Assembly (NCBI GenBank): GCA_024762585.1
Contig: JANTHE010000007.1
Coordinates: 1 to 35,266 of the forward strand
From: Sulfuricurvum sp.
GTDB taxonomy: Bacteria > Campylobacterota > Campylobacteria > Campylobacterales > Sulfurimonadaceae
DNA length: 35,266 bases
Direction of reading: 5' to 3'
The notes beneath the pieces were generated by a model, which was given only the letters and a program-made list of their open reading frames with translations, was not told where the DNA came from and searched no databases. A program made the translations under genes and the position numbers. This document shows positions 13,491 through 25,224 of the stretch, piece by piece; positions within the stretch are counted from its first letter, which is position 1; every line of letters begins with the position of its first letter.

Positions 13491-14462
13491 CTAAACAAAG
13501 GAACGTAAGTCAGTTTTTACCTTTTCAAACTGCTCCGAACGAAGTTCTGGGTCATGGCTTAGCATATAGGGATGCTGCAGTGCTTTATCGCTCACCGCCT
13601 TCCAGCGCTTGACTGACGCAAAGAGCGTATCGGCAAAAAAGGTCATCGTCGGGGTGCCCACGGCAGCTGCAAGGTGATAGGTACCAGTTGAAGTGCTGAC
13701 AAATAGCCTAAATGATGCCAGCAGTTTGGCGAAATCGACCAATCCGCCACGAGAGCTGAAAAAAACGACGTCCAACCCGCGCGCTTTCTGCACCGCCTCC
13801 TGTTTCAATATATCCTCATCCGGGCCGAAAGTCATGACCACCTGGATATCGTTACGGTATCGTAGTGCTTTAATCAGCTCGATATACTCATCAAGCGTCC
13901 AGTTGGCATCGCTCGATCCTCCGAAACCGGGGTGAAAGGCGACCACCGGCTTACGGATGCCGTACTGTTCGCAAAATCGTCTGTAAGCAGCATCGATCTC
14001 TAGTTGAGGAAACTGCAGTAACGGTTGGCGATAAATCATGTCAAGGTCGGGAAAAAGCGTTTTGGCCAGCGCCAGGTTGTATTCAAACTCCGCCATCTCC
14101 ACTTTGGATCGGCGTTGGGGAATGCGTTCAGTATAAAAAATCTGGGCCAGTTTGGTCGCCGGAGCGATGCGGCGCGGGATGCGGGCAATCCACTGCGCAA
14201 GTGCTACACGGGTGTTTGAAAAAAGCGTCAGCGACACATCCGCCTCTACCCGGCGAAGTTTTGCAGCAAACTGCAGCAGCGGTTCGCCCTCGTCCACCAC
14301 TACCTCATCGATAAAATCGCACGCTTCGGCCAATGCGCGGTTCAGTGGTGCGACACAGGCGACAATGCGATTGTCGGGATTGTGTTTTTTTAGCACATAA
14401 AGCGTCGGCAGTGCCGTGATAAAATCACCCAGCTTGTCGGTACGGACAATGAGGATAATCAT
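13491..14462 (-). CDS. GT9 heptosyltransferase-type glycosyltransferase
   Basis: 323 residues. The start MIILIVRTDKLGDFITALPTL is the GT9 N-terminal loop that includes the acceptor-site aspartate; VVAFHPGFGGSSDANW is the linker strand that usually reads FHPG(A/S); VSTSTGTYHLAAAVGTP is the donor-binding motif, here with STG in place of the more common D(S/T)G. That replacement suggests a donor or specificity different from classical WaaC/WaaF. It is the first gene of a minus-strand run into a GT2 gene. The upstream AGGT is nine bases from the ATG, a weak ribosome binding site. Divergent from the LTA-synthase-like gene across a 164-base spacer. Confidence 0.85.
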   Translation of the reverse strand: MIILIVRTDKLGDFITALPTLYVLKKHNPDNRIVACVAPLNRALAEACDFIDEVVVDEGEPLLQFAAKLRRVEADVSLTLFSNTRVALAQWIARIPRRIAPATKLAQIFYTERIPQRRSKVEMAEFEYNLALAKTLFPDLDMIYRQPLLQFPQLEIDAAYRRFCEQYGIRKPVVAFHPGFGGSSDANWTLDEYIELIKALRYRNDIQVVMTFGPDEDILKQEAVQKARGLDVVFFSSRGGLVDFAKLLASFRLFVSTSTGTYHLAAAVGTPTMTFFADTLFASVKRWKAVSDKALQHPYMLSHDPELRSEQFEKVKTDLRSFV

Positions 14463-14626: not shown

Positions 14627-16484
14627 GTGCTATTCTTACGTAACTATTTTCTTGTTTTTCTGACAACCTGCCTGATCATCGCTATCACCAAATTTATCTT
14701 TGTCGCTTTTTATTTCGAGCAGTATGAAGTCTACTCTCCCGATATCCTTTTGTATGCAATCGCCTGGGGATACCGTTTCGATTTCGCACTCGCGGGTATT
14801 GTCAGTCTGTTTGTAACACTGTTTGACTTTTCCGCAAAACTATTGCGCTACACATTTGTACTCTCTCTCATGGCTGTTATCGTGCTTCAGCTCTCCGATA
14901 TCCTCTATTTCGAAGATGCCTCGCGACACATAGGATACGAATTAAAGGATATTCTTGTGGATACTTCAGGGTTGTTCATGACTGCCCTGAGCCAGAACAC
15001 TCTTTTTACTGTGGTCTCAATGGCACTCCTGCCATTACTATTCTGGCTGCTTTATCATTTCGTGCGGCGAACACTCCACCCTGTCCCCCTTAATCACACC
15101 TATCTGCCCAAAAAAGTGCTATTGATTGCACTAAGCATTTTTTTCGTACGCGGGATGTTCGCACACATTCCCCTGAATCCGTGGCAATCGAGCCAGATCG
15201 GCGACAACCGTTTGGCCGCAGTTTCGTTAAACGGAAGTTACAATGCACTCTTCTCTTTGTTTACAGCAAGCGGCGATATCAAGATGCCCGCTCTGCCTTC
15301 GGTGACCGACACAGAAATATCCAATACAATGGCGTCACTGTATGATGATAACAATGCAACCTACGAATTGACACCCAAACGTCAAAATATTATCCTCTTT
15401 TTTCTCGAAAGCTGGAGCGGTTCTTTATTACAACCCTACGGTGCTCCCGTGCAAAGCACACCATTTTTCGACACTGTTTTACAGCAATCACTACATCCGA
15501 TTGCCGCAATCGCCAATGGCCACAGGACTACAGAAGGGATGTTTGCTGCACTCGTCTCATTTCAGAATCCGCTTGAAAAAACAGTTGCAAAAACCCGTCT
15601 TCAGGATTTTGAATACCACTCATTAATCGATATTCTAAACGCGAATGGTTACAGCAGTGCTTTTTTTCAGGGTACGGCCAAAGAGACCAGCGGTACAGGC
15701 TCACTGGCTCAAAAGCTTGGATTTAAAAAGAGCTACGGAAAAGAAGATGTGACGACAAGACGCTATGAAACAAACTATTGGGGCATTCATGATCAGGATC
15801 TCTATACATTCGCGTTCAATAAGCTCAAACACCTTAAAGAACCATTCGTTCTCGGCATTAACGGCGCTACGACCCATGATGACAAGATCCCGTCGAGCGT
15901 CAAAAAAAATAGCTTTTGTCGACGATGAAAAACAGAACAACCGTCTTAATGCTTTGCATTTTTCGGATGCAGCCCTTCGTGAATTCGTCTCCGATGTCAA
16001 AGCGAAATTCCCAAATACCCTTTTTGTTTTTTTTGCTGACCACTGCGGTGGCGGGCAAGCAGGCAATTTCAACAATTTTTTGATTCCACTTGCCTTCTAC
16101 GGCAGCGGAATACAACCGCACACCGTAGACCATTTTGCTTCACAGCGAGATATTGCCCCTACCGTACTCGATCTCGTGCTGGGAGACTATAAAAAACTCG
16201 CACCCGATTTCTCGGGAAAATCACTCGCAAGGGATACGCACTTTTTTGCCGATTACTTTCGCAACGGTGTCTTTGGTTGGATTGAAAACAAGAGATTAAT
16301 CGAATATACTCCGGCAGCAGATGCCACTGCCTGCTTCGATGTCTCTTCGCCACTGCCTGTACCTGTGACATGTACCGCGCCGGAGAAAAGATACAAAGAG
16401 CATGCTCTTTCATTTGGGAATATCAGTCAAAAGCTTCTTTTTCAGGGGAAAACAGGAAATTTTCATCAATACCGTTTCCACTAA
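14627..16484 (+). pseudogene. LTA synthase-family (sulfatase-fold) membrane transferase, frameshifted at an A8 tract
   Basis: Two frames join into one protein of about 618 residues. The first (14627-15928) has about five membrane helices in residues 5-180, then the periplasmic alkaline-phosphatase-fold domain: ILFFLESWSGS (metal ligand E261) and NGHRTTEG with the expected nucleophile Thr (T301 or T302). It ends early in KKNSFCRR-stop. The second frame carries the rest of the domain, KKIAFVDDEK onward, including FVFFADHCGGG, the Asp-His metal site. The switch is in eight adenines at 15902-15909: with seven the frames would be continuous. Family members move phosphoglycerol or phosphoethanolamine onto glycans or lipids outside the inner membrane. 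It may be a true pseudogene, a phase-variable 'off' state, rescued by polymerase slippage, or a sequencing error. The GTG start lacks a good ribosome binding site. Confidence 0.83.
15902..15909 (+). repeat. A8 homopolymer at the frameshift site
   Basis: Eight adenines lie exactly where the reading frame must shift by one base. A seven-adenine version reads GTC AAA AAA ATA GCT and stays in frame. Homopolymers of this kind are prone to replication and transcription slippage. Confidence 0.85.
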
Positions 16485-16499: not shown

Positions 16500-17762
16500 A
16501 TGAAACCGCCGTTTGCATGGGATGCCTACTCCGACCAGCCATACCAACTCAAAGACCGTACTTTTAAAAAACAGCTGCGCACTGCACAACGCACCTCTTT
16601 GCTAAAAACAGCCCTTTTCGGACTCTTCTGGTTGCCGCTCGGTGTACTTTCCATGCCGTTTCTTCGGCAAAAAAACGTTGAGACGGACCATTTTTTCGGA
16701 CTGCTCGTCGACCCGCTCCGCGAACCCGACAAAACACGTGATGTCATCGAATCGCTCGGCGTCCAGGAACTGCTCATACGCATCAAAATGTGGGAGACTG
16801 AATCCCTGGACGCCGTCACGGATTTTCTGCGCAAACTCGAGGGACGCTCTTTTCTCTTCGTGCTGATGCAGGACCGCGAACTCGTCGAGAACGAAACCTT
16901 GCGGAAGGTATCGTTTTCACGAATCTTCGCCGCACTCACACCCTTTGGTGCCCGCTTTCAAATCGGTACCACCCCCAACCGCCTCAAGTGGGGGTTTGCG
17001 AGCATAGACGAATACCTTGACTTTTTCAAAACTGCGCTGCGGCTTCGCGATGCAAACTATCCGCAGCTAAAGCTGATCGGCCCAGGTGTGATCGATTTCG
17101 AATATCCCTACACCGCCCACGCACTGTTCAACCTCAAAGGGGTCCGGTTCGACGCGCTCGCCGCCCTGCTCTACGTGGATCGCCGGGGTGCGCCGGAGAA
17201 CTCCCAGGCAGGATGCGACCTGCCCTGCAAGATCAATCTGCTTTCTTCACTGTCCATGCTGAGTCCCCGCGCCAAAGGTGATCTATACCTGACCGAGACC
17301 AACTGGCCGCTGACGGGTACGGCACCCTACGCCCCCACCAGCGAAAAGGAGTGCGTGGACGAAGAGGCCCATGCCAGCTATCTCGTGCGCTACTACCTGC
17401 TCGCTCTTGCAACGCAGCAGGTCCGCACCGTCTACTGGCACCAGCTGGCCGCGCCCGGCTACGGCCTTGTCGATACGCGAAAGGGGTGGCGCGAACGCCC
17501 TGCCTACCACGCTTTTAAAACGATTATCCATATGCTGAATAGCGCCCGATACGTCGCCCTTTCCCAAAAACGCGACCGTTTTGAAATGCTGCTGGAAAAG
17601 CCCGATGGACTGCTGCGGATTTTCTGGCGAAACGGCGGAAGCGAAACGCAGCACTTTGCACAGTCTCAACAGTTTACCGACAGGGACGGAAACACATTTA
17701 TAACTGATACCCTAGTCATTTCGGACGCACCGGTTTACCTGCATGAAAAGGAACAATCATGA
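16500..17762 (+). CDS. Membrane-anchored glycosidase-like (TIM-barrel) protein of the LOS locus
   Basis: 420 residues. A single hydrophobic segment at about residues 33-54 (LLKTALFGLFWLPLGVLSMPFL) probably anchors it in the inner membrane. The remainder looks like a glycoside-hydrolase clan-A barrel: a strand with FQIGTTPNRLKWG (154-166) where many barrels have an xNEPN acid/base, DLYLTETNWPLTG with E266 at the expected nucleophile position, and VRTVYWHQL near the end. In the first motif a threonine (T158) replaces the glutamate, so classical hydrolysis is doubtful. It overlaps waaF by four bases and is co-translated with it. I do not recognise a named family; it may trim, bind or remodel LOS or its lipid-linked precursor. 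The ATG has no ribosome binding site and may be leaderless. Confidence 0.7.
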   Translation: MKPPFAWDAYSDQPYQLKDRTFKKQLRTAQRTSLLKTALFGLFWLPLGVLSMPFLRQKNVETDHFFGLLVDPLREPDKTRDVIESLGVQELLIRIKMWETESLDAVTDFLRKLEGRSFLFVLMQDRELVENETLRKVSFSRIFAALTPFGARFQIGTTPNRLKWGFASIDEYLDFFKTALRLRDANYPQLKLIGPGVIDFEYPYTAHALFNLKGVRFDALAALLYVDRRGAPENSQAGCDLPCKINLLSSLSMLSPRAKGDLYLTETNWPLTGTAPYAPTSEKECVDEEAHASYLVRYYLLALATQQVRTVYWHQLAAPGYGLVDTRKGWRERPAYHAFKTIIHMLNSARYVALSQKRDRFEMLLEKPDGLLRIFWRNGGSETQHFAQSQQFTDRDGNTFITDTLVISDAPVYLHEKEQS

Positions 17763-18757
17763 AAGTGCTGATCCTCCTGCCCAACTGGTTGGGTGACGCC
17801 GTGATGGCGACCGCAGCGATCGAATCGCTGTGCGAGCACTATCCTCAGGCACGGTTGACGCTGGTGGGTTCGTTCGTCTCCGTCGAAGCGCTGAAACATC
17901 ACCCCATGTGCGTAGATACTTATGTGGACAGAACAAAACAGGGCGGAAACAGGCTGCTCAACACCTACCGGTTCGCCAAGACGATCGGCCCGCACGACGC
18001 GGCCATCAGTTTCCGAAACCAGCCGCACGCCTCGCTGCTGCTCATGTGGACAGGCTCGCCAAAAACCGTCGCCCGAAAAAGCTGGCATGCCTCGCTGCTG
18101 CTCAGCGACGCGGTACCGCTCTCACACGACGAACATTTGGTCCGGCAATACGAACGTCTGGCAGACCGCCTGACGGGGAGCACGATGCAGCCGGGACCGC
18201 TGCGGCTTTTTATTCCGCCCAAAACCTACGAACGCCCGACGCTTGGTATCAATCCCGGCGCGACTTACGGCTCGGCCAAGCGGTGGTATCCTGAAAAGTT
18301 CGCCGCCGTCGCTGCGCACTTTTCAACGCGCTTCGACATCGTTATTTTCGGAGGGCCGGGTGAAACGGAAATGGCCGACGCCATAGAAAACGACCTAAAA
18401 GAAAAAGGCGTAAAAAACTATCAAAACCTGGCGGGAAAAACAACAATTGAGGAGCTCTGCGCCGCTATCGGCGGTCTGTCGATCTTTATCACCAACGACA
18501 GCGGTCCAATGCATGTCGCCGCAGCCTACCGCATTCCGACCGTCGCCGTCTTCGGGCCGACACGCCACAAGGAGACGTGCCAGTGGAAAAACCCGAAAAG
18601 CGCGATTGTCCGGCACGACATGGAGTGTGCGCCGTGTATGAAACGTGAATGCCCACTGAAACATCATGAATGCATGAAATCGATCGAAGCACATGAAGTC
18701 ATCGAAGCAGTCGAACATTTAATTCTGCCTCCCCGGAGAGAGAATTTTGAACAATAG
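17759..18757 (+). CDS. waaF: ADP-heptose:LPS heptosyltransferase II
   Basis: 332 residues. The start MKVLILLPNWLGDAVMATAA is the WaaF form of the GT9 N-terminus; LGINPGATYGSAKRWYPEKFA is the WaaF signature linker; FITNDSGPMHVAAAYRIPTVAVFGPT binds ADP-heptose, and the C-terminal CAPCMKRECPLKHHECM is the typical cysteine-rich tail. The enzyme adds the second heptose to the inner core, in the cytoplasm, before MsbA export. It begins within the last codons of the glycosidase-like gene, with AAGGAA six bases upstream. ADP-heptose is presumably supplied by HldE/HldD encoded 1.3-3.8 kb downstream on the other strand. Confidence 0.93.
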   Translation: MKVLILLPNWLGDAVMATAAIESLCEHYPQARLTLVGSFVSVEALKHHPMCVDTYVDRTKQGGNRLLNTYRFAKTIGPHDAAISFRNQPHASLLLMWTGSPKTVARKSWHASLLLSDAVPLSHDEHLVRQYERLADRLTGSTMQPGPLRLFIPPKTYERPTLGINPGATYGSAKRWYPEKFAAVAAHFSTRFDIVIFGGPGETEMADAIENDLKEKGVKNYQNLAGKTTIEELCAAIGGLSIFITNDSGPMHVAAAYRIPTVAVFGPTRHKETCQWKNPKSAIVRHDMECAPCMKRECPLKHHECMKSIEAHEVIEAVEHLILPPRRENFEQ

Positions 18758-18849
18758 CGACGCACTCGGATATGCGACTGAATACATTTATTTGTTTTTT
18801 TAGATCATATAGAGTACAGTCTTGTAATACATTTACAGAGGAGACCGGG

Positions 18850-19434
18850 ATGAAAACAGTAATCAGTACTCTACTGGCAGCGATGCTTTCAACCACCCTT
18901 TTTTCGGATGAAATTGAGGAGCAGATCAAAGTGGGGTTGGAATCCTATCAGTCCGGTGACAGCAAAACTGCCATTGAGGACCTTAATTACGCCATCGCAA
19001 AACTCCAAGAAAAAGTAAATGCCGAGAATGCAAAGCTTCTCCCCGAACCCCTAGAAGGATGGAGCGCAGAGGCAGTAAGTAACGGCAGTGGCGCCATGAC
19101 GATACTTGGCGGCGGGACACAGATGTCGCGGTCCTACACGCACGGCGCGGAACGTGTCAAAATTTCCATTATGTCCGGCCCGATGATCGGTGCTACGCTG
19201 GGTATGATCAACAATCCCATGCTGCTCGGCAACAATCCCGATACGACTGCGTACCGATACAAACGCTACAAGGGCATGAAAAAAATCAATGGAAACTCCA
19301 CAGAAGTTATGCTCTCCGTTTCCGGACAGATCATGGTTCAGATTGAGGCAAATGGGGTAAAAAACGCAATGAAAGTAATCGAAAACTACTTACACGAGAT
19401 TGACTTTGCCAAGCTCAAAGAGGCGTTGCTGTAA
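18850..19434 (+). CDS. Exported protein of unknown function with a TPR-like N-terminus
   Basis: 194 residues from the ATG at 18850, which has AGAGGAGA just upstream; the frame is open back to 18772 but that part has no start context. Residues 1-19 (MKTVISTLLAAMLSTTLFS) are a signal peptide. Next comes one helix-turn-helix resembling a tetratricopeptide unit (GLESYQSGDSKTAIEDLNYA), a LLPEPLEGWSAEA turn, a Gly-rich GGGTQMSRSY stretch and several beta-like strands ending MVQIEANGVKNAMKVIE. Similar periplasmic proteins occur in other Proteobacteria as conserved hypotheticals, as far as I recall. It lies between waaF and the convergent yfaZ-like gene and seems to be a single-gene unit. Function unknown. 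Confidence 0.7.
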   Translation: MKTVISTLLAAMLSTTLFSDEIEEQIKVGLESYQSGDSKTAIEDLNYAIAKLQEKVNAENAKLLPEPLEGWSAEAVSNGSGAMTILGGGTQMSRSYTHGAERVKISIMSGPMIGATLGMINNPMLLGNNPDTTAYRYKRYKGMKKINGNSTEVMLSVSGQIMVQIEANGVKNAMKVIENYLHEIDFAKLKEALL

Positions 19435-19502: not shown

Positions 19503-20105
19503 TTAAAAACGAAACTTCACCCCGACAAACCACGCTTCATTAAAAATGATGTCCCCATGATCGGTGTCAAAGTCGGTGTCGATCTTGCGATAGCCTCCTG
19601 TCAGCGAAGCGAAATCAATAATCTGAATATCGAGTGAGAGGTCGTATTCGAAATAGTTCTTCGCATCGTTCCATGACAGCACCTGCGGCGCATAATAAAG
19701 CTGTGCACCGACAATAAACGGTACAGGAAGACCCAATGGCAGATCGTACGCCACATGCACCCCCAGCGGCAAGGCATAATAATCATAATCAGTGATCGAG
19801 GTGTGCACAAACTTCGCTCCAAGACCGAGTTTTAACGCACGATGACCAGAAATCCGCTGCTGTACGAAAAAGTGTGCGTCGTACAACTCGTGATCTTTAT
19901 CGAGATCGCGGTCGTTATGCTGGTGCGAACCGTGCAGATAGCGCCCCCCGAAAAAGAAAAGATCAGGATCGATAGCGGGATTAAACTGCCCCATGTCCAG
20001 ATTCAGTTGTGCATCCAGATCGTAGTTGTTTAGATTGAGCTCCACTTCATGCATCGCCAGCAGCGTTCCTGCCAGTACCCATAATAAAACCAGCTTTTTC
20101 AGCAT
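19503..20105 (-). CDS. YfaZ-like outer-membrane beta-barrel protein
   Basis: 200 residues. A signal peptide (MLKKLVLLWVLAGTLLA) is followed by alternating strands rich in Tyr/Asp/Gly (FFGGRYLHGSHQ, LGLGAKFVHTSI, LPLGVHVAYDLPLGLP, FIVGAQLYYAPQVL, ASLTGGYRKID) and a C-terminal phenylalanine in WFVGVKFRF, the signal for outer-membrane insertion. Length and repeat pattern fit the YfaZ family. The ATG sits seven bases inside the end of hldE, with GAAGGAAG as ribosome binding site, so it is the last gene of the hldD-hldE operon. Function unknown; being tied to heptose genes may be only positional. Confidence 0.75.
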   Translation of the reverse strand: MLKKLVLLWVLAGTLLAMHEVELNLNNYDLDAQLNLDMGQFNPAIDPDLFFFGGRYLHGSHQHNDRDLDKDHELYDAHFFVQQRISGHRALKLGLGAKFVHTSITDYDYYALPLGVHVAYDLPLGLPVPFIVGAQLYYAPQVLSWNDAKNYFEYDLSLDIQIIDFASLTGGYRKIDTDFDTDHGDIIFNEAWFVGVKFRF

Positions 20106-21535
20106 GTGCTTCCTTCTTGTATTTTGGCAATGGTCGAAGTGGTACTTTTTCCTTCCACAAAATCAACCAGTTGAAGTTCTCCGGAAAACTCGCTTCCGAC
20201 GACCTTCTTGCCGGCGTAATCCCCGCCTTTGACCAGTACGTCCGGACGCAGCATCTTAATCAGTTCATGCGGAGTATCATCGCTGAATTTCACGACATAA
20301 TCCACCGATTCCAATGCCGCCAGAATATAGGCGCGGTCATCTTCGCTGTTGACCGGGCGTGACGGCCCTTTGAGCGCGCGCACCGAAGCATCGGAGTTCA
20401 GACCGACGATGAGGATATCCCCGAAACTCTTGGCCACCTGCAGGTACTTGACATGCCCGACATGCAAAATATCAAAACAGCCGTTGGTAAATACGATTCG
20501 CTTGCCACCTCCACGACAGCGATTCACAATACGCCCGATCTCCTTAAAGCTTTTGATATGCGCATCAGAGCTGCTTTGGTGCAGCATTGCTTCATACTCC
20601 TCGATCTCGTCAAGCGTCACCGTCGCGGAGCCGATCTTGCCCACGACAACGCCTGCCGCAAGGTTTGCAAAACGCGCCGCATCATCAATGGAGCGTCCTG
20701 AGCTGAGCGCAAAGGCGATGGAAGCAATCACAGTGTCGCCTGCACCCGTGACGTCGTAGACCTCCTGCGCCACTGTCGGGAAACGCCTGAGACCATCGTC
20801 GTAGATACCGATACCGTCTTCGGAGAGCGTGATCATGGAGCGGTCAAGCTCGCATTCGTTTTTCAGCCACAGCAATGCCGCTTCCAGGCTTGTATCGTCG
20901 GTAATCTCGATGCCCGTCGCCTCGATGGCCTCCTTCTTGTTCGGTGTCAGCAGGTGTGCACCGCGGTATTTCGAGTACTCTTTTCCTTTAGGGTCGACCA
21001 GAACTTTTTTTCCGTTGTTGCGCGCAAGTGTGATGATGCCCTGCGCCAATTCCGTCGTCAGCACACCTTTTCCGTAGTCGGAGAGAATGATGATGTCATA
21101 GAGGAACAGGTCTTTTTTGACCGCGGCGAGAATCTTTTGCTCAGACGCCTCGGTGATCGCATCTTTGGACTCCCTGTCGTAGCGCAGGATCTGCTGGTTT
21201 GAAGCGACGACACGGCTCTTTTTGCTCGTCTTGCGTCCCGCTTGCGTCACCAAGCCTTCAGTCTTGACCCCGATGCTTTTGAGCATCAGGGTCAACTCTT
21301 TTCCGTTGGCATCGTCCCCAATGGCGGCAGCGACGCTGACGGTAGCACCGAGGGCGATCAGGTTATTGACAACGTTGCCTGCACCGCCAAGCACCGTTGT
21401 TTCATTGGAAACATCCACGACCTGTACCGGGGCTTCCGGCGAAATTCGCTCAGCATTGCCCCAAAGGTAGTGGTCGATCATCAGATCTCCAACGACAAGA
21501 ATGTTAGGTCGGCAGTTTTTAAGCTGAGGGATCAT
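20099..21535 (-). CDS. hldE: Bifunctional heptose-7-phosphate kinase / heptose-1-phosphate adenylyltransferase
   Basis: 478 residues, the full length for HldE (RfaE). The N-terminal part (1-about 310) is a PfkB/ribokinase-fold kinase: NILVVGDLMIDHYLWG and GGAGNVVNNL at the start, and DVTGAGDTV at 261-269 with catalytic D267. The C-terminal part is a nucleotidyltransferase with NGCFDILHVGH at 351-361 (HxGH motif). Together they make ADP-D-glycero-beta-D-manno-heptose from heptose-7-phosphate with a phosphatase (GmhB) acting between. GmhA and GmhB are not in the window. The start overlaps hldD by four bases (ATGA). Confidence 0.96.
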   Translation of the reverse strand: MIPQLKNCRPNILVVGDLMIDHYLWGNAERISPEAPVQVVDVSNETTVLGGAGNVVNNLIALGATVSVAAAIGDDANGKELTLMLKSIGVKTEGLVTQAGRKTSKKSRVVASNQQILRYDRESKDAITEASEQKILAAVKKDLFLYDIIILSDYGKGVLTTELAQGIITLARNNGKKVLVDPKGKEYSKYRGAHLLTPNKKEAIEATGIEITDDTSLEAALLWLKNECELDRSMITLSEDGIGIYDDGLRRFPTVAQEVYDVTGAGDTVIASIAFALSSGRSIDDAARFANLAAGVVVGKIGSATVTLDEIEEYEAMLHQSSSDAHIKSFKEIGRIVNRCRGGGKRIVFTNGCFDILHVGHVKYLQVAKSFGDILIVGLNSDASVRALKGPSRPVNSEDDRAYILAALESVDYVVKFSDDTPHELIKMLRPDVLVKGGDYAGKKVVGSEFSGELQLVDFVEGKSTTSTIAKIQEGSTC

Positions 21536-22539
21536 TCAACCTCTTCTTCAAACAGGCGTTTGATCTCAGGAAGGTATGCTTTAATGCCCTCTTCAAGCTC
21601 GAATCGGGATTTATAGCCCAGCCCGCGCATGGTTGAGCCGATATCGGCTTCGGTATGAAACTGGTAGCGCCCGACGAACGGATTGGGAATATACTCACAC
21701 GGCGTGTGGATAGCGAGCTGATCTTGCAGAATATCGACAATGGACTGGAACGAACGTGCCTTGCCCGTGCCGACATTGTAGATACCGTTCTCTTTGGGAT
21801 GCATCGCCAGAATATTTGCCTGGACGACATCTTCTATATAAATAAAGTCACGCAGAATTTCGTCTGAACCCTCGAACAGCTTCGGATTCTTACCGGATAA
21901 AATCTGATGGCCGAACTGCACCACCATCGATGATGTTTTATTTTTAAAATATTCGCGAGGGCCATACACATTAAAGTAGCGCAGACCGACAATACCGATC
22001 TTCTCTTTTTGTATATAGTCTCGGCTGAGATGGTCCATCATCAGCTTGGAAAAACCATAGACATTCTGTGGTGCTTCGCGTCCTACCGTCTGCGGTGAAG
22101 GCGCGTTGCCGTACGTCGCACCCGACGAGGCGTAGATCATGTTCGCACCCTGCCGCACCGCCATGTCCAGCAGATCCTTATAGGCATTCAGATTGGTTCG
22201 GATCATCAGGTCCTGCTCGAGCGCCGTCGTATCGGAGATGGCCGCTTCATGGAAGATGTAATCAAAATCATAGTCGCGCTCCAGCTTGGCCAGCAGCGCT
22301 TTGTCGTTGATGTCGCCGCTGATCACTTCGCCGCTGAACCCGATCAGGTTCTTGAAGTGGCCAAAACTCTTGAGATTTCCGTTGCTCAGCGTCTCACCGC
22401 TGCGGAAACTGTCGAGCACGACCACATGCGCATCGGGATGATTCTCCTGAAAATAAAAGGCAAGATTTGCACCTATAAACCCGGCTCCTCCGGTGATCAG
22501 AATCGTTTTGCCTTTAAGATCGTCATCGATATAACGCAT
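21532..22539 (-). CDS. hldD: ADP-L-glycero-D-manno-heptose 6-epimerase
   Basis: 335 residues, extended short-chain dehydrogenase. GGAGFIG (17-23) binds NAD(P); IYASSGATYGN and YGFSK (Y161, K165) form the active site; RYFNVYGPREYFKNKTSSM is typical of HldD (RfaD). It flips C6'' of ADP-heptose, the last step before WaaC/WaaF. The ATG has AAGGAGA upstream. It is the first gene of a three-gene minus-strand operon with hldE and the yfaZ-like gene. Confidence 0.96.
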   Translation of the reverse strand: MRYIDDDLKGKTILITGGAGFIGANLAFYFQENHPDAHVVVLDSFRSGETLSNGNLKSFGHFKNLIGFSGEVISGDINDKALLAKLERDYDFDYIFHEAAISDTTALEQDLMIRTNLNAYKDLLDMAVRQGANMIYASSGATYGNAPSPQTVGREAPQNVYGFSKLMMDHLSRDYIQKEKIGIVGLRYFNVYGPREYFKNKTSSMVVQFGHQILSGKNPKLFEGSDEILRDFIYIEDVVQANILAMHPKENGIYNVGTGKARSFQSIVDILQDQLAIHTPCEYIPNPFVGRYQFHTEADIGSTMRGLGYKSRFELEEGIKAYLPEIKRLFEEEVE

Positions 22540-23050: not shown

Positions 23051-23115
23051 ACACAAATTAATTTCTCTTCCTATACAATCTGACCATATCTCATCTGTTA
23101 TTGGAACCTATAATT

Positions 23116-25224
23116 ATGCCTCTAAAAAAACTGCAGCTTCCCGAGGATTCTTCAAGTACAAAAAAAGTACTCATCTATCTGTTTACAGCCTATTTTTTCG
23201 CAGTGGCAACCCGCGCAGCGCTCTATTTCCAAACCGCTGACATTTCCGCATTTTGGCTAAACGGACAGCCACTGCCCATCTGGTCGCCGGATGCCGGGCT
23301 CTATGGCTACTATGCCAAACAGATACTCGGCGGTCATACCTATCCCTTTGTCTCGGAGTATATGCCAGGGTATGTGATAGCGGGAGTTGTGAAGCTAAGC
23401 GGCTTCTCGATAGATTCTATAATGTTCTGGCTTCCGGCCGTGCTCTCTTCACTGATCGTTTTACCGGTTCTGATGGCTGCGCACGCTTACCGGCAGGATA
23501 CATTGGGATTGATTGCGGCACTCTTGGCCGCAACCAGCGCCAACTTTTATACTCGCTCGCACCTTGGCTACATGGATACGGATGTCTTGAATGTATTTTT
23601 CCCCTGGATGGCGATCGCTTACTGGATTTACGCATTAAAACACAACAGTATATTTTATGCCGTCCTTGCGGCGATCATGCTCGGGCTGTTCAGACTGTGG
23701 TACCACTCTTCCGATGCCATCATATTCGGCCTCTTTTTCGGCCTTTTGGTTACAGGGATACTTTTTTTCAGAAAACAGAATGTCGCCTACCAGACCATCA
23801 TCCTCGCTGCACCGATGCTTTTGCCAATTCCCTTCTGGGCCTCTTTGTCATCCGTCATCGCAACGGGATTCTTGTTTGGATTTCTTGAAAAACGCCTAGC
23901 GATCACTCCAAAGCATTACCTCTTTTTACTTCTGGCTGCAGCCGTTGCCATCCCGTTCATCATCAACCTAACAAGCTATATCGAACGGGCGCAGGACTAT
24001 TTTTCGAAATCCGACATGCTGGCCATCGCCACATCACATGGCGTTTTTCATTTCCAGGACTCCCTCTCAAGCGTCATCGAAGCCAAAGGAGCGCCAATCT
24101 GGCAGGTTTCGCCTGTCTTCAAAGGTCTCCTCGCCTATATATTCCCGGCCATCATAGGCTTCTTTCTGCTCGCTGCGGCCTACAGAGCGTTTGCCATTGC
24201 TGCTGTCCTCTTGATTCTGGGGTTTCTGAGTCCGATCGTCGGTATCCGCTTCACCATTTATGCCACTCCGGCGCTGGCACTCGGTTTTGCCTATCTGCTC
24301 ATTTTGCTGATGCATCATTTCTTTATTCAGCAGCGTATCAGGCAGCTGTTCACGGCTGCTGTATCCATGGCGGCACTATTACTGATGGGGATGAATATTG
24401 CGCTCTTCAATCCCCACCTGCAGCCATTTTATTTTCATAAAAACGAGGTCAAAGCACTCGAGGATTTTTCCATGCAAGCCGACAACAATGATCTGATATT
24501 GAGCTGGTGGGATTACGGATGGCCCATCTGGTACTATACCGGTAAAAACATCACCCTGGTCGACAACGGGCTTAATCACAGCGATACGTTTTATGTCGGC
24601 AATATGCTGCTCTCTTCCAATCCCACCTTTGTCGCGCACAGTGCGGCGTATGCCAGAAAAATAAGAAACAGCGGTGTCAAAGAGGTGATTCCCTACATCG
24701 CCCGGCACGGCGATGTCTTTGAACAGTTCAAGCTCCTCTCCAACCCCCAAAACTCTGTCGAAGCCCCTGGAAACAGTTATATTCTGCTGCATCGAGATAT
24801 GCTTGCGGTATTGCCCACGATCGCTGCCACCGCCGACAGAGACCCTCGCAGCGGAAATCCGACAAGGCATCGGCAGTTCTATCTGTCTGAGCTTCAAAAA
24901 CCCTATGATGGAAAAGATCCGATTCTCCACGGTGACACATTCACCCTTGACCTTCGCAGTGGTATCATCACCGGAAGCAATGGCGCAAGCTCCCGCGTTT
25001 CCGGCGTAGCGGTCTCTGAAAATGGCAAATTAACAGCAGCGCAGCGTTTCGACGCCAATGCACCGATGTACCTCATCATTTATAACCGAACAAAGGCACT
25101 GTATATGGATAAAAGTGTCTTTAACAGCTTTTTGATTCAGGCACTGGTGTTGGGAGTTTACAACAAAACGTATTTTGAACCGGTAGCAGAAACAGGGATT
25201 ATGAAGTTATTCAAAGTCCGATAA
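23116..25224 (+). CDS. pglB: PglB/STT3-type oligosaccharyltransferase
   Basis: 702 residues from the ATG at 23116; a TTG at 23101 is also in frame. The N-terminal two thirds (to about 440) is a multi-helix membrane domain with the catalytic metal-site aspartates: D59 in WSPDAG in the first external loop and the DTD motif in GYMDTDVLN (154-156). The periplasmic domain begins with WWDYG at 464-468 (SWWDYGWPIWYYTG), which reads the +2 Ser/Thr of the N-glycosylation sequon. Such enzymes move a lipid-linked oligosaccharide onto Asn in the periplasm. Unlike Campylobacter jejuni, no pgl cluster surrounds it; instead it converges, with 3 bases between stops, on a nine-gene glycan operon. Motifs look intact. 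Confidence 0.93.
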   Translation: MPLKKLQLPEDSSSTKKVLIYLFTAYFFAVATRAALYFQTADISAFWLNGQPLPIWSPDAGLYGYYAKQILGGHTYPFVSEYMPGYVIAGVVKLSGFSIDSIMFWLPAVLSSLIVLPVLMAAHAYRQDTLGLIAALLAATSANFYTRSHLGYMDTDVLNVFFPWMAIAYWIYALKHNSIFYAVLAAIMLGLFRLWYHSSDAIIFGLFFGLLVTGILFFRKQNVAYQTIILAAPMLLPIPFWASLSSVIATGFLFGFLEKRLAITPKHYLFLLLAAAVAIPFIINLTSYIERAQDYFSKSDMLAIATSHGVFHFQDSLSSVIEAKGAPIWQVSPVFKGLLAYIFPAIIGFFLLAAAYRAFAIAAVLLILGFLSPIVGIRFTIYATPALALGFAYLLILLMHHFFIQQRIRQLFTAAVSMAALLLMGMNIALFNPHLQPFYFHKNEVKALEDFSMQADNNDLILSWWDYGWPIWYYTGKNITLVDNGLNHSDTFYVGNMLLSSNPTFVAHSAAYARKIRNSGVKEVIPYIARHGDVFEQFKLLSNPQNSVEAPGNSYILLHRDMLAVLPTIAATADRDPRSGNPTRHRQFYLSELQKPYDGKDPILHGDTFTLDLRSGIITGSNGASSRVSGVAVSENGKLTAAQRFDANAPMYLIIYNRTKALYMDKSVFNSFLIQALVLGVYNKTYFEPVAETGIMKLFKVR

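Follow-up and report, generated by a model that had tools for sequence, protein, structure and literature searches.

How does a gene that keeps the catalytic motifs of its family on both sides of a run of eight adenines come to be split by that run, and is the split a switch, a site of slippage, a sign of decay, a lost allele or a mistake of the draft? The question is raised by a PF00884 LTA-synthase-like gene (14627-16484, + strand), whose reading frame is broken at an A8 tract at 15902-15909. The window, by which we mean the whole stretch of DNA that was analysed, is an entire contig (G000:C7, 35,266 bases) of a Campylobacterota draft genome of 1.97 Mb in 221 contigs that is 89% complete. 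The broken gene comprises:

14627..15928, + strand: piece 1 (433 aa), with the membrane part followed by the first half of the sulfatase-fold domain
15902..15909, + strand: A8 tract, site of the +1 frame change (tblastn bracketing with genus orthologs)
15909..16484, + strand: piece 2, the rest of the sulfatase-fold domain in the +1 frame (PF00884 203-299/301)

The open reading frame of piece 1 starts with GTG at 14627 and ends at an early TGA stop (15926-15928). Beyond the tract, the +1 frame from 15909 holds 191 open codons up to a stop at 16482-16484, and the two remaining frames reach stops after 0 and 5 codons. The two pieces match consecutive parts of the Pfam Sulfatase profile: piece 1 covers positions 1-176 of 301 (E=1.2e-14, 54.8 bits, gathering cut-off 25) and piece 2 positions 203-299 (E=2.6e-10, 40.6 bits, cut-off 25). 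Placing the frame change at A8 gives the residue spacing found over the tract in most intact orthologs, which locates the lesion at A8, about 69% into the gene. No further lesion was found within 14627-16484. The coordinates and the single A8 lesion described in the earlier note are thereby borne out, as open reading frames, frames and the split of PF00884 all agree. A hexamer coding test at the gene's own A8, which is a weak test, gave no clear call, and the AlphaFold model of an intact ortholog has a mean pLDDT of 58, too low to support a comparison of folds. A second eight-base run, T8 at 16027-16034, lies in frame within piece 2.

The motifs are indeed retained across the halves, as had been claimed: LESWS, GHRTTEG and TTHD are in piece 1 and ADHCG is in piece 2, each of them present as searched in 10 or 11 of 11 orthologs. 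We take their roles to be those in LtaS, namely the Glu of LES, the nucleophile Thr and the DH of the metal site. Judged from its sequence, the truncated product, which lacks the metal-site segment ADHCG, should be inactive. We rejected a translation restart in the right frame, since piece 2 has no Met codon in its frame beyond A8 and the ATG overlapping the stop belongs to another frame.

What the enzyme may act on is suggested by its neighbors:

13491..14462, - strand: divergent GT9 heptosyltransferase-like gene upstream of the transferase (PF01075, 70 bits)
16500..17762, + strand: conserved protein between the transferase and waaF (420 aa; identity 64-71% in 3 genus genomes, which share the gene order)
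17759..18757, + strand: heptosyltransferase II, waaF-type (TIGR02195, 179 bits against a cut-off of 134.6; GT9)
20102..22539, - strand: HldE-like kinase/cytidylyltransferase and HldD-like epimerase, for ADP-heptose supply (Pfam PfkB + CTP_transf_like; Epimerase; synteny)

The 420-aa protein has no Pfam or NCBIfam match, and the gene at 13491..14462 stays below every NCBIfam equivalog cut-off. The order transferase, 420-aa protein, waaF and HldE/HldD-like genes is common to three other genomes (G001, G006, G004). This conserved lipooligosaccharide-heptose gene order points to the heptose region of lipooligosaccharide as the most likely target of the transferase, which probably decorates the cell surface and may transfer phosphoglycerol or phosphoethanolamine. 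The enzyme is not LtaS proper: scored apart, the two pieces reach only 31.2 and 20.7 bits with the LtaS equivalog NF053595, against a cut-off of 970. With an intact genus ortholog as query, VP1736 (3lxq, 3.3e-24) and LtaS (4uoo, 5.9e-4) come nearest among solved chains. In the literature searched, we found no function for this branch of LTA-synthase-like enzymes and nothing to the point on vent relatives. The genome also encodes an intact paralog of the transferase (G000:C17:6710-8341; 638 aa, 26% identical). Elsewhere in the window, the membrane protein encoded at 23101-25224 (707 aa) contains WWDYG, the motif of PglB/STT3-kind oligosaccharyltransferases.

A place in a lipooligosaccharide heptose cluster favors one reading that the earlier note had offered, that reversible A7/A8 switching toggles a surface modification within the population. 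Short poly-A precedents exist in Campylobacter jejuni, where flgR and flgS are switched by shorter poly-A tracts (PMC3928116) and an A8 to A7 change was isolated in pgp1 (PMC5530802). Relatives of the gene speak on this point and on the age of the break. Clear orthologs occur in four of the seven other genus genomes (47-65% identical, frames of 627-651 aa, no internal stop); the remaining three have only distant paralogs, so that the gene is patchy in the genus. An order-wide search of 398 genomes gave nine that pass E 1e-60, our own included; in the eight besides it, the open frames span 616-635 aa. A contig scan added the ortholog L019 and the partial L021; the latter was left out of the break-site alignment of 11 ortholog sequences as its match ends before the break.

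All 11 aligned orthologs read in frame through the break site. In four orthologs of the genus, identity to the window is level on the two sides of the break (before/after: 65.2/66.1% for G004, 59.0/61.1 for G001, 57.9/60.5 for G006 and 47.1/50.3 for G003). At positions otherwise invariant, as set by 10 other sequences (L004 was dropped, being nearly identical to L003), the window departs at 0 of 93 before the break and 1 of 42 after it, and the other sequences depart at 0-8 and 0-5, respectively. The single departure of 42 cannot date the event. We rejected gradual decay, as neither relaxed constraint nor added lesions are seen past the break, in keeping with the earlier argument that a decaying pseudogene would usually show more damage.

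Aligning the tract among relatives shows that A8 is not retained: the local A run at the homologous site is 4, 4, 4, 5, 7, 4, 6, 7, 4, 4 and 4 in the 11 orthologs, and never 8. An in-frame A7 is present in two of them, where two AAA lysine codons adjoin. An evolved switch was dropped as the lead reading because the tract is not conserved, and nothing marks A8 as a purpose-built on/off switch.

Nor is the tract at 15902-15909 rare in itself; that it breaks a gene is the unusual part. The genome has 159 exact A8/T8 runs, seven of them in the 35 kb window, followed by eight A/T runs of length 9 and two of length 10. An order-4 Markov model gives expectations of roughly 204, 82 and 20 for lengths 8, 9 and 10, which are rough figures, as the model was built on 173 kb poor in A8 and scaled up. 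The sharp fall from 159 at length 8 to 10 at length 9 or more shows that run avoidance in this genome starts at 9, and selection against runs from about nine has been described for many genomes (Baranov and others, PMC1088944). G/C runs of at least 8 are found at only three places. For a switch, both a tract that is one of 159 and so few long G/C runs are unfavorable.

The same counts weigh on slippage rescue, in which RNA polymerase, as the earlier note proposed, or the ribosome slips on A8 and so yields some full-length enzyme. Such rescue is known on longer A tracts, in Citrobacter tssM, where an A11 tract gives about 20-25% (PMC4256274), and in Thermus dnaX, with slippage on nine As (PMC1088944). 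Here the avoidance of runs sets in above the length of our tract, and the frame would be restored only by a change of -1 or +2, as inserting one A brings the frame to an early stop. In E. coli RNA, single-base insertions dominate at homopolymers and deletions are rare; that study describes no case of a restored frame (PMC5574713). With a +1 slip meeting an early stop, deletions rare and avoidance only from 9 on, slippage rescue of the A8 transferase is disfavored, and we consider it very improbable.

If the tract is not maintained, how often do such tracts break genes in this genome? We surveyed 625 kb of it, chosen largely around A8 runs, which are thus over-represented, against open reading frames of reference DNA (2.05 Mb, mainly G001). 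Frame breaks were assessed over about 223 kb of usable homology, a sum that includes small overlaps between stretches, holding 31 A/T8, 2 A/T9, 69 A/T7, 242 A/T6 and 684 A/T5 runs and 170 G/C runs of 5 or 6. Two of the 31 A/T8 tracts were broken and 29 were unbroken; no break was confirmed at the 69 A/T7, 242 A/T6 or 684 A/T5 runs or at non-homopolymer sites within these ~223 kb. Four frame-break places were listed, two of which are real, the transferase and an alanine-racemase-like gene, and the other two proved to be antisense artefacts. On checking, further candidates were discarded as antisense artefacts or adjoining genes (L050, L062, L079, L080, L027, L084) or read as adjoining genes (L055, L072, L070, L081), and a candidate pair in L026 had no family match. 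A less strict pass viewed 93 non-edge A/T8 tracts by open frames only; both broken loci also passed, which makes it no proof of intact frames.

The second A8 break is new here and lies beyond the window. The racemase-like gene (L038 2761-3814; G000:C8, about 18260-19313) is broken at an A8 tract (L038 3104-3111; G000:C8 around 18603-18610), with the same sign as in the transferase. Its pieces meet at A8 and match at 71% and 65% an intact 369-aa protein of G341, a genome from another family of the order; no intact relative occurs in the seven other genus genomes. Since this reference (L154) was added by hand after a Pfam hint, the second break is not a blind find. An amino-acid-racemase-like gene is no obvious surface gene, which again counts against a surface switch.

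Two breaks that share both the A8 context and the sign, with no other lesion in the transferase and none confirmed outside homopolymers, are also the pattern expected of miscounting. An error in a draft of this fragmentation and completeness would give the same picture as a slip: the consensus would have miscounted one A in each of the two genes, and the true genome would be in frame. With 29 of the 31 covered A/T8 tracts unbroken, such errors must be rare, and short reads seldom miscount an A8 run, which argues against an error if this is a short-read draft. We regard a consensus error as a real possibility, only moderately less likely than an insertion slip.

An insertion slip at A7 is the simplest real event. 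Tentatively, and at close to an even chance, we favor an ordinary slip of this kind, leaving a recent null allele or polymorphism of a dispensable LTA-synthase-like gene. An in-frame A7, made of a Lys-Lys pair and the next A, would gain one adenine during replication to become A8, and the product would end a few residues past the tract, before ADHCG. As the gene is otherwise undamaged, the allele would be young or polymorphic. We infer that the break is in the real DNA and is a loss allele rather than a maintained switch.

A genus lacking both MutL and canonical MutS1 can be expected to show slips of this kind, and slip-prone A tracts are plausible there. Neither MutL (TIGR00585) nor MutS1 (TIGR01070) was found over cut-off in any of eight genus genomes, as compared with 11 of 14 controls for each, and the absence of mismatch-repair genes in Epsilonproteobacteria is already in print (PMC2147049). 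The genome does encode a 1,027-aa MutS protein with domains I, III and V and a C-terminal HNH nuclease (L196:543-3626, G000:C27), the same make-up as the MutS7 of epsilonproteobacteria (PMC3166940). This protein may act alone, as a repair system of its own, and then possibly counts against a slip-prone genus; the 29 unbroken A/T8 tracts likewise suggest that A8 is not very unstable and count against a slip.

The direction of the change also bears on the choice. In Listeria inlA, A6 to A7 insertions arise at about 5.5e-7 and A7 to A6 deletions at about 3.9e-8, some 14 times more rarely (PMC2831843). By analogy, this insertion bias resembles the sign of both confirmed breaks in the ~223 kb, and rare deletion would hinder a return from A8 to A7 in a reversible switch. 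Of the phase-variable reading, the slip-prone chemistry thus stands as plausible given the missing MutL and MutS1, whereas a tract that is unconserved, lies so far into the gene and is one among 159 does not suit it, and we judge such switching unlikely. A broader proposal is that in this genus in-frame A7 tracts slip mainly to A8, so that whole and truncated alleles of several surface and metabolic genes occur side by side within one population. Such genome-wide, insertion-biased A-tract variation, in a lineage with hardly any long G tracts, seems to us a rather doubtful extension.

A real break would be a further A-tract null allele, in a group whose known tract variation comes mainly from animal-associated species; the transferase and racemase-like tracts would then be two sites where metagenome reads could show whether these relatives vary their surface likewise. 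Should it instead be an error, the draft's A8 tracts call for care. The observation itself holds, is of a familiar kind and has low general interest.

Four known systems help to place the locus. LtaS and LTA-synthase-like enzymes (PF00884; 4uoo, 3lxq) share with the transferase an N-terminal membrane part and a sulfatase-fold domain; unlike LtaS, the gene studied here is Gram-negative, close to waaF and far under the LtaS equivalog cut-off. Thermus dnaX and Citrobacter tssM resemble it in having an early stop after an A tract and an open continuation in another frame, but their tracts are of 9 and 11 As, whereas ours has 8 and needs -1 or +2. In Campylobacter jejuni flgR/flgS and pgp1, a one-base change in an A tract likewise truncates the protein; those variants arose in cultures, in contrast to the single draft consensus and unconserved tract seen here. 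The inlA alleles of Listeria monocytogenes are alike in their A7-type tract, their one-base change and their natural nulls with intact sisters, and differ in having the tract at the 5' end of inlA, whereas the A8 of the transferase lies well into the gene.
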